From a virus: a DNA stretch of 20,878 nt. The stretch's first letter is position 1. Every line of letters starts with the position of its first letter. Below, one piece after another: positions 2,242-4,270 of this stretch. The notes beneath the pieces are model-generated. The model was not told the DNA's origin. It was given only the letters and a program-made list of their open reading frames with translations, and made no database searches. The position numbers and the translations under genes were made by a program. The stretch spans positions 1-20,878 of the IMG/VR virus record IMGVR_UViG_3300044970_000028. One strand, written 5' to 3'.

Positions 2242-2736
2242 ATGGAAGTTACAAAAGGTTCGGATGGCAGATATTACAAGCCATGTTCATCTTGTGGTGA
2301 GCTTCAAAGTTATTTAAGAAAGAATTATGCTATTGAGTCTTTGCGACTCAAAAAAATGTGCAAAAAATGCTCAAACCGAAAAACAGACAATTGTCATAGG
2401 GGTTGGCATAGAGGGGTTAGAGTTTCTTGGTTCAATAAATTTAAAGTTGGAGCCGAGACTCGTGGAATAAGTTGGGAACTATCAATAGACGATGTTGCAG
2501 ACGTTTTTGATGAGCAAGATCGTCGTTGTGCTCTTACTGGTTGGTTATTAGTTTTTCCGTCAATTGGTCATCCACAAAATACTGATGCAAGTATAGATAG
2601 AATTGATAGTCAAATTGGGTATAAAAAAGACAATATTCAGATAGTAAGCAAAAAGGTAAACATGATGAAACAACATTACAGCATGGAGGATTTTGTTTTC
2701 GTCTGTAAAGCTGTTGCGGACAGGGTGAAGTGGTGA
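2242..2736 (+). CDS. Free-standing HNH-type endonuclease
   Basis: This 164-residue protein has a strong AGGAGG site upstream. The N-terminus has two Cys-x2-Cys pairs (residues 15-18 and 40-43), likely a zinc finger. The C-terminal half carries CALTG (96-100), SIDRIDS (117-123), GYKKDNIQ (126-133) and a later Asn at 140 in KKVNMMK. This is the order seen in a family of phage HNH endonucleases in which the Asp-Arg-Ile-Asp block and the Asn contribute to the metal site. Codons are richer in AAA, TTT and CAA than in neighbours, which suggests recent acquisition. It is probably a homing endonuclease between two host-related modules. Target and activity are unproven. Confidence 0.75.
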   Translation: MEVTKGSDGRYYKPCSSCGELQSYLRKNYAIESLRLKKMCKKCSNRKTDNCHRGWHRGVRVSWFNKFKVGAETRGISWELSIDDVADVFDEQDRRCALTGWLLVFPSIGHPQNTDASIDRIDSQIGYKKDNIQIVSKKVNMMKQHYSMEDFVFVCKAVADRVKW

Positions 2737-3299
2737 GTCACCAGAGCCAGTTAAATTTCGTTAGCAGTCTGAAATCACAGTTTCCTATATTTTTTGCAGG
2801 TCAGAAAGTATTGGAAGTAGGAAGTTTGGATATTAATGGCTCGATAAGACAATTCTTTGTAGGCTGTGACTATACTGGTGTTGACTTGGGAGAAGGCAAA
2901 GGCGTTGATCTGGTGGCTAAGGGAGAGGAATTAGACTTTCCTGATGGTTACTTTAAGGTTGTGGCTAGTTGTGAGTGCTTTGAGCATAATCCTGAATGGG
3001 AAGCTACTTTCAGGAATATGATTAGGATGAGTAGTGGGCTAGTGTTTTTCTCTTGTGCAACTACTGGTAGACCTGAGCATGGAACTAAACGGACTAGTCC
3101 TGATGATGCTCCTTTTTGTGGTGATTATTACCGCAACTTAACGGAGGAGGATTTTAGGGAGAAGTTTACGTTTGAGGAGTTTGAGAGTTACGGATTCTTA
3201 ACGAATAGCAACCCTGCTGATTTGTATTTCTGGGGTATCAAGACGCATGAGCATTTGCTGGAGATGGTAGAACGCACCACTACCGGAGAAATACGGTGA
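2730..3299 (+). CDS. SAM-dependent class I methyltransferase
   Basis: The frame opens with two GTG codons at 2730 and 2733; the second forms a GTGA overlap with the upstream stop. The protein of about 189 residues has class I methyltransferase features. These are VLEVGSLDINGS (residues 27-38), the motif I loop that binds S-adenosylmethionine; an acidic residue at Asp52 in YTGVDLG; and SCECFEHN (80-87) at the motif IV position. The rest resembles small Methyltransf_11-type enzymes that modify sugars or small molecules rather than DNA, since no NPPY or DPPY motif is seen. It lies next to a glycosyltransferase-like gene, so modification of a glycan is a reasonable inference. The substrate cannot be determined. 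Confidence 0.78.
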   Translation: MVSHQSQLNFVSSLKSQFPIFFAGQKVLEVGSLDINGSIRQFFVGCDYTGVDLGEGKGVDLVAKGEELDFPDGYFKVVASCECFEHNPEWEATFRNMIRMSSGLVFFSCATTGRPEHGTKRTSPDDAPFCGDYYRNLTEEDFREKFTFEEFESYGFLTNSNPADLYFWGIKTHEHLLEMVERTTTGEIR

Positions 3300-3559
3300 A
3301 TGCTCAGTCGTGTTGGTATTAGTGAACAGTCGGCAGTGGCATAGTGCACACGGACAATGGGGAATAGCTGATACCAACAGCTAACACGCATGAGGATTGA
3401 TTAACCTGTTTAAGCGGTCGCAGGGGCATCGAAAGGTGCGTATAGCCGCATTAGTCCTCAGTCGTGTTGGCGGCATAGGTGCACCTATGTAATTGCTGGA
3501 GATGGGATTAACTTAGTGAGGCTCTATTCAGACACTGCCAACAACTAACAGGAGGTTAC
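3300..3559 (+). ncRNA. Candidate structured RNA with two related stem-loops flanking a GAAA hairpin
   Basis: This is the only long non-coding stretch in the window. The 14-mer CTCAGTCGTGTTGG occurs at 3303-3316 and 3457-3470. Copy 1 pairs TGTTGGTAT (3311-3319) with ATACCAACA (3371-3379). Copy 2 pairs TGTTGGCGG (3465-3473) with CTGCCAACA (3535-3543). Both are 9-pair stems, and three inner pairs differ between copies while still pairing. Each copy is followed by a conserved CTAACA. Between them, TGAGGATTGAT (3391-3401) pairs with ATTAGTCCTCA (3450-3460) and encloses GCATC-GAAA-GGTGC (3426-3439). The palindrome CATAGGTGCACCTATG lies at 3474-3489. The structure is seen directly; its being an RNA and its function are inferred. 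It could be a trans-acting RNA or a cis-regulator of the next gene. Confidence 0.5.
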
Positions 3560-4270
3560 TTGCAAGCAATCGTAATATGCACTGTAAACAGTCCGAGCAT
3601 CCATGTATTAATGGAGTCAATAAATCAGTATGCACCAGATGATATACCGATATACCTTAGCGGTAATAACTTGGAACTCTGGGCAAGAGTCAGAGACACG
3701 GGAAATGTCATCTTCAGACCCAATACTGCTACCAATTTCGGAGATGCATATAATTCAGCGATTGATTACACATTCCTACATGGGCATTACGATTCATTAA
3801 TAGTATGTAACGATGATGTGGTATTTACTCCTACGACTTACGAACTGTTAAAGAAAGACTATGACTTTCTTACAGGCGATAGAGAATTCAAGGTAGGTTG
3901 GTTAGGATGTAGGTCGGATTATGTATTGCATGACCAGAATATTAGATTCCCGATAGAGGGTGATAGTGTTACAGCGTTGAAATACAGTAGTGAAGAAAAA
4001 ATAAAAGAGGCAAAAGTAATAGCTCCTATTTGCGCTGCTGTAACTAAAGATGCATGGGATACGGCTAAATTTCCCTCTATAAATTGGTTTTCAGATAATA
4101 TAATCTGTATGGACATGAGTAAGGCGGGGTATAAGCATTTCGTGAGCAGGGCGTATGTTCATCATGCTGGATCACAAACGGTAGGAATGGACTACGAGAA
4201 GTGCTTAGAGGAGCCTAAAGCGTGGTTAAAGGCTAACAGGCCAGATATGTATGAATTGTTCTACGCATGA
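3560..4270 (+). CDS. GT-A-fold glycosyltransferase-like protein
   Basis: The best start is TTG at 3560, after AGGAGG at 3550-3555 with a short 4-base spacer; no ATG lies near the start of the conserved fold. The 236-residue protein begins with a beta strand (QAIVICTVNSPSI) as expected for a GT-A Rossmann-like domain. It has NATNFGDAYNSAID-like spacing near residues 56-69 and the acidic motif CNDDVVF (83-89), which would bind metal and nucleotide sugar. A late AYVHHAGSQT segment matches the C-terminal His region of family 2-like enzymes. It probably transfers a sugar to a phage or host glycan. The TTG start and the structured leader upstream suggest translational control. Donor and acceptor are unknown. 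Confidence 0.72.
   Translation: MQAIVICTVNSPSIHVLMESINQYAPDDIPIYLSGNNLELWARVRDTGNVIFRPNTATNFGDAYNSAIDYTFLHGHYDSLIVCNDDVVFTPTTYELLKKDYDFLTGDREFKVGWLGCRSDYVLHDQNIRFPIEGDSVTALKYSSEEKIKEAKVIAPICAAVTKDAWDTAKFPSINWFSDNIICMDMSKAGYKHFVSRAYVHHAGSQTVGMDYEKCLEEPKAWLKANRPDMYELFYA

Follow-up and report, generated by a model that had tools for sequence, protein, structure and literature searches.

Positions 3240 to 3546 of the window, by which we mean the whole stretch of 20,878 nucleotides analysed here, encode a modular structured RNA, present as two units in tandem. In each, a stem P1 (ACG..UGAGGAUU paired with AGUCCUCA..CGU) is followed at once, with no spacer, by a stem P2, and both stems enclose a long and variable "plug-in" domain. 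The element looks unremarkable in one genome, yet it is part of a widespread and nearly undescribed class of structured phage RNAs, and the P1/P2 units would be a clear example of RNA evolution through the exchange of domains.

The window comes from a freshwater phage and is a virus record of 20.9 kb, with portal and capsid genes that match those of SU10-type podoviruses; a blastn comparison of its DNA with annotated phages finds nothing, and only short motifs are shared. An earlier note on this DNA had singled out 3300-3559 as the only long gene-free gap, and this is borne out: the other candidate, 1635-1925, holds two overlapping short ORFs. These ORFs, lysine-rich and about 50 codons each, lie in 1632-1929 and probably encode small phage proteins. 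The element that the note placed in the gap is real but was drawn too small, its true extent being 3240-3546: the 5' part of unit A overlaps the 3' end of ORF 2730-3299. The methyltransferase profile of this ORF stops near residue 172, approximately where unit A starts, and its final residues are thus probably a translation of inserted RNA sequence. The protein of gene 3560-4270 has no Pfam or PHROG match, and we read it as glycosyltransferase-like. The features of the locus are given in the table.

Table. Features of the two RNA units and of their flanking genes, in window coordinates
Feature	Position	Strand	Basis
Upstream gene, SAM-dependent methyltransferase	2730..3299	+	PHROG 32762, E 1.7e-60
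RNA unit A (P1 and P2 with domains)	3240..3382	+	motif, complementarity, minimum-energy fold; homologues L018, L073, L078, L161, L142
Unit A, P1 5' strand ACG-CA-TGAGCATT	3243..3255	+	direct; covariation
Unit A, P1 plug-in domain	3256..3298	+	homologues L090, L127, L131, L142, L240, read by eye
Unit A, P1 3' strand AATGCTCA-GT-CGT	3299..3311	+	direct; covariation
Unit A, stem P2 (3311-3322 with 3368-3379) around P2 domain A	3311..3379	+	ten-member family, covariation
CTAACA copy 1, 6-nt repeat at unit ends	3381..3386	+	direct; L018 and L078, without unit B between repeats
RNA unit B (P1 and P2 with domains)	3383..3546	+	motif, minimum-energy fold; homologue L073
Unit B, P1 5' strand ACG-CA-TGAGGATT	3386..3398	+	direct; covariation
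Unit B, P1 plug-in domain	3399..3452	+	one distant homologue, L010, by eye
Unit B, P1 3' strand AGTCCTCA-GT-CGT	3453..3465	+	direct; covariation
Unit B, stem P2 (3465-3473 with 3535-3543) around P2 domain B	3465..3543	+	direct
CTAACA copy 2 and Shine-Dalgarno GGAGG (3551-3555) ahead of TTG start 3560	3545..3559	+	direct; compared with empty sites with abutting genes
Downstream gene, 236 aa protein	3560..4270	+	TTG start at 3560

The sequence facts from which the note had started are correct: the 14-mer CTCAGTCGTGTTGG occurs at 3303-3316 and 3457-3470, the stems TGTTGGTAT/ATACCAACA (3311-3319 with 3371-3379) and TGTTGGCGG/CTGCCAACA (3465-3473 with 3535-3543) are exact, three of their inner pairs are altered between the copies with pairing kept, and CTAACA trails both copies, at 3381-3386 and 3545-3550. 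The single nine-pair stem described for each copy is real, and is our P2, but the first stem, P1, had been missed: relatives found with the 14-mer revealed a further conserved strand upstream, ACGCAUGAGGAUU, that pairs with AGUCCUCA..CGU. This strand is present in the window at 3243-3255 and 3386-3398, and the P1 pairing joins 3248-3255 with 3299-3306 in unit A, and 3391-3398 with 3453-3460 in unit B. Both window units have the conserved ACGCA and the covarying inner triplet of P1, unit A with a U-A that replaces the conserved U-G at the wobble position, and in both P2 follows P1 without a gap and its inner pairs covary; minimum-energy folding recovers the two stems in either unit. The motif GGCATAG(G)TGCAC, also said to be common to the two copies, is indeed present, but probably by coincidence, since the two P2 domains of the window fall in different clusters. 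We judged coincidental as well a 13-nt repeat, TTGCTGGAGATGG (3255-3267 and 3493-3505), whose two copies lie in unrelated domains.

When the region was shuffled 20,000 times by mononucleotide, a 14-mer repeat arose in three cases. Six nine-pair stems of this spacing are present in the region; 300 shuffles give 0.17 on average, with one shuffle reaching seven. Folding energy alone gives no signal (z = -1.2 and -0.3 for two pieces), and it is thus comparative evidence that demonstrates the RNA structure.

That evidence comes from 98 units anchored by a sequence motif only, with the central triplets of P1 left free; a looser structural scan was abandoned for these motif-anchored tests, its 667 matches, against 401 in reversed sequence, being too many by chance. 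The eight-pair P1 stem forms in all 98 motif-selected units, through 15 pair combinations, whereas a control that swaps 3' strands between units yields 68.2 +/- 2.2 units that pair, with a maximum of 78. Every unit that was recovered in a scan with both P1 triplets free, and then motif-anchored, pairs as well. In an alignment of P1 and P2 over 38 composite sequences, 98.1% of cells are paired, and 47 cells show changes on both sides, compared to 11.3 +/- 2.6 in shuffles, a signal that is destroyed by sliding the partners against each other. The outer five pairs of P2 are nearly constant and its three inner pairs covary. The P2 partners of this alignment were picked by complementarity, which is a source of bias; a test free of it finds 32 of 75 free triplets complementary, versus 17.1 +/- 3.0 in swaps. 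The claim of selection on RNA structure is therefore supported by strong covariation in the homologues, in P1, in P2 and in domain A. Nor does the stretch read as an intact coding frame in homologues: all three forward frames of 3238-3546 are interrupted by stops, as are those of 63 among 82 units.

The domains themselves are structured. In the P1 domain of unit A, the hairpin 3266-3270/3280-3284 shows compensatory changes in homologues (GGUAG/CUACC, GGCAG/CUGCC, GCCUG/CAGGC), as read by eye. The inner helices of P2 domain A are 3329-3331/3353-3355 and 3336-3340/3346-3351; the domain belongs to the ten-member family, in which 19 cells change on both sides, compared to 7.0 +/- 2.3 in shuffles. 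For the P1 domain of unit B, we propose a pseudoknot formed by 3405-3408/3421-3424 and 3414-3417/3446-3449, together with a hairpin 3426-3430/3435-3439, on the basis of compensatory changes read by eye in a single distant homologue, L010. P2 domain B occurs elsewhere only in L073 in the domain clustering of the 98 units. A kissing-loop domain found in both freshwater-type and coliphage-type units has 42 both-side-change cells versus 7.9 +/- 2.2 in shuffles: both of its hairpins covary, and so does the one variable pair of the loop-loop contact (Fisher p = 0.0014).

How these domains are distributed shows that they are swapped between scaffolds. In the 98 units, P1 domains fall into 64 clusters and P2 domains into 58; 11 of the P1 clusters are combined with two or more P2 clusters, and eight of the P2 clusters are found with several different P1 ones. 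Some domain types even switch position, from P1 in one unit to P2 in another (L043/L127, L009/L130). Some plug-ins resemble tRNA or the message domain of tmRNA, and most do not; T-arm hairpins were seen in 11 of 161 domains, where background stretches give 0.75.

Is the RNA fold merely the by-product of a recombination cassette, whose stems would act as short homology or as folded-DNA sites for gene swapping? The domain swapping is in keeping with this explanation, as are the CTAACA repeats at the unit ends and the polymorphism of the locus. One or two P1-type elements, with several different domains, are carried by 14 of 79 relatives of the downstream gene, and in the other 65 the unit is absent and the flanking genes abut or overlap in most; L018 and L078 have unit A and lack unit B, and in L073 a different upstream gene is joined at the unit start. 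However, the units keep G-U pairs, which are not DNA pairs (the U-G of P1 is kept in 35 of 38 sequences), and the motif stands at one place per record instead of being dispersed, so that we consider a cassette improbable. The motif was found in 41 of 46 phage records, once or twice, always in tandem and at a single site, with zero matches for the reversed pattern; many of these records are fragments, and copy number is a lower bound.

Other small elements were seen around these loci. A spacer element AAGTTTATAGTC...TTTAAGTTTACAGTCAGGAG occupies the same insertion spot upstream of the homologue of gene 3560-4270 in L177, L201, L205, L214 and L234, and also occurs in L022 and L037. Variants with P1 and without P2, ending in CCGTGTTGATATT(T)AGGGGAATTACTTGCAA or near that, are found in L210, L224, L231 and L232, and a short hairpin with loop GAAAGA (e.g. 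CCCCGGAAAGACGGGG) adjoins several units, in L011, L113, L148 and L034.

We now turn to the spread of the class. A consensus query has matches, many of them partial, in 213 annotated phages; a 96-nt consensus of the coliphage type matches 465 of 50,697 annotated phage records, many over part of the query, and, partially, 1,124 of 5,426 E. coli genomes. Whole or partial units are present in lambda, HK620, P1, Bas77, Magnus, phiEt88 and others, many coliphages among them, phage P1 having several tandem units beside tRNA genes. A motif search of 399 genomes of the Polynucleobacter order returned 23 with matches, mostly unlike real units and about as many as with the reversed-pattern control, which indicates that units of the freshwater type are restricted for the most part to phages and prophages; a copy on a Polynucleobacter chromosome adjoins prophage genes. 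The two scaffold types, freshwater and coliphage, are not alike in sequence. We treat them as one class because they have the same layout and have in common the kissing-loop domain, nearly identical in the two types, and we infer that the scaffolds are of common descent.

No fixed neighbour gene accompanies the units, which adjoin terminases, HNH, MazG, repressors and SSB; the local coding strand is the same as that of the unit in 57 cases, opposite in 19 and unclear in 22, out of 98. Many units nevertheless occupy positions expected of a cis element, in the leaders of operons or between genes of the same direction, and two explanations of this kind have to be weighed.

The main rival of the reading that we favour is antitermination or anti-pausing in cis, the nascent two-stem RNA binding RNA polymerase and letting it pass downstream terminators, in the manner of put of phage HK022, which consists of two adjacent stem-loops that act without a phage protein (PMC9378689). 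Units are found in leaders, after the repressor in mEp460 and in the late leaders of lambda, HK620 and phiEt88, and one site per record would suit a cis site. On the other hand, HK022 putL (NC_002166), compared by eye, has no common motif with the units; in KP591P1 and Bas77, the units lie in RNA-only stretches and the next genes downstream are encoded on the opposite strand; and a cis site needs no swapped domains. The lambda unit (44785-44960), moreover, lies just 3' of the terminator tR'. A cis site of this kind is, in our estimate, unlikely, though a serious candidate.

According to the second explanation, the units are intercistronic spacers, with stems that protect or cut a polycistronic mRNA (RNase E/III, Rho shielding), bring a Shine-Dalgarno sequence, and act on their own transcript only. 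The window would fit: its units lie between co-directional genes, with GGAGG beside the next start, and neither a promoter nor a terminator was seen near them. But whole domains are conserved well past the needs of a spacer, as the near identity of the kissing-loop domain across unit types illustrates, and most relatives do without any element at the window locus. We hold this explanation to be quite unlikely.

The reading that we favour, and to which we give about an even chance, is that of a phage-encoded structured RNA that acts in trans and is probably cut from longer transcripts. The lack of a fixed neighbour, the RNA-only loci of KP591P1 and Bas77, the domain exchange and an expressed relative, STnc100, all count for it. 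So does a promoter-like site at the Bas77 locus, although the terminator hairpin there was called by the scan on the opposite strand only, and these transcript boundaries are consensus predictions. A unit would be transcribed within whichever phage transcript contains it, would probably be cut out as a small stable RNA, and would work on a host component, the conserved scaffold serving as a shared handle and the swapped domains as variable effectors. Since some plug-ins mimic tRNA or the message domain of tmRNA, the target might be the machinery of translation, tRNA processing or ribosome rescue, or else a defence that monitors it; this link comes from a minority of domains, namely the T-arm hairpins and the tmRNA-like domain of coliphage units. 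We raise more tentatively the idea of a general phage platform, in which one two-stem scaffold, from lambda to freshwater podoviruses, would carry interchangeable domains, tRNA and tmRNA mimics included, that trap or misdirect host factors of translation, of ribosome rescue or of tRNA-cleaving defence. With units in lambda and P1, the function of the scaffold can be tested in standard laboratory strains.

The tmRNA-like message domain also deserves a description of its own. With no recognisable tRNA-like domain, it is found in L152:2588-2760, L146:2713-2820, L150:2640-2790, L155:2298-2426 and L156:2300-2405, also in L449-L455 near 1200-1400, and, by blastn, in 763 of 50,697 phage records (Felix O1, Kuttervirus, IME11, P1, HK620 and others). 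Its tags include ANEEMYLAVA, ANDDVVLMAA and ANDNVFLAVA, and identical tags differ by synonymous changes. Two stretches of about 2 kb without annotated gene, L450:248-2235 (Kuttervirus Maynard) and L454:420-2506 (IME11), hold this domain, the latter together with an RNA unit. A survey of 2014 lists tmRNA, among phages, only in mycobacteriophages and Bacillus phage G (PMC4131195).

It remains to compare the units with known RNAs. The note had recognised no known riboswitch, ribozyme, tRNA or retron RNA in the gap. Rfam likewise gives no match in the window, with nothing meaningful at E <= 10, and neither ARAGORN nor Rfam finds a tRNA or tmRNA in it. Over the window and its relatives, Rfam returns only tRNAs, C4, isrK, STnc100, sub-threshold tmRNA and chance-level matches. 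The intricacy of the folds, which include a kissing loop and perhaps a pseudoknot, might recall a described riboswitch, ribozyme or intron family missed by the models, but with no Rfam match in the window and no consistent downstream gene, we regard this as very improbable. Two phage RNAs were set aside by position, svsR at the 3' end of cI (PMC12803456) and PreS between ea10 and ral (PMC12197685); neither is a P1/P2 unit.

Like the units, GOLLD and ROOL are ornate phage RNAs, of unknown function and often near tRNA islands (PMC12286853); however, they have no Rfam match in the window or its relatives, and each is one fixed fold of 600-800 nt, whereas P1/P2 units are modular and roughly 100-250 nt long. 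The put sites, whose RNA binds the beta' zinc-binding domain of RNA polymerase, share with the units two adjacent stem-loops in phage operon leaders, P1 and P2 being likewise without spacer, but put is about 70 nt long; the units accommodate insertions the size of a domain and are not restricted to operon starts. With tmRNA, one plug-in seen in coliphage units has in common a pseudoknot, a GCA/GCU resume codon and a tag of ten residues (for instance ANDDVVLMAA), but it has no recognisable tRNA-like domain and is absent from the window; the Rfam tmRNA models score it at 20-28 bits, below the cut-off of 47, and ARAGORN finds none.

A known relative is STnc100 (RF02076), an expressed prophage RNA of about 190 nt seen on Northern blot (PMC5331693), of which PasD has been reported as a structural relative (PMC13192938). 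Both are small RNAs from prophages of enteric bacteria, phage-borne like the units, and STnc100 is one plug-in variant of the P1/P2 class: an STnc100-like domain occupies the P2 position of a unit in phage P1. Its model scores 52.9 bits in Magnus, and 33.9 bits, below the cut-off of 47, in P1. The window units, with other domains and another P1 sequence, have no match to this model at E <= 10, and their P2 domains fold otherwise than the two hairpins of STnc100 that flank a variable part in a GGUG/CACC helix. In the literature searched, whose coverage leaves out most subscription papers, we found no description of the P1/P2 scaffold or of domain exchange. STnc100 is already named and its model covers neither of the two; this orphan prophage RNA would gain its place in a larger family.
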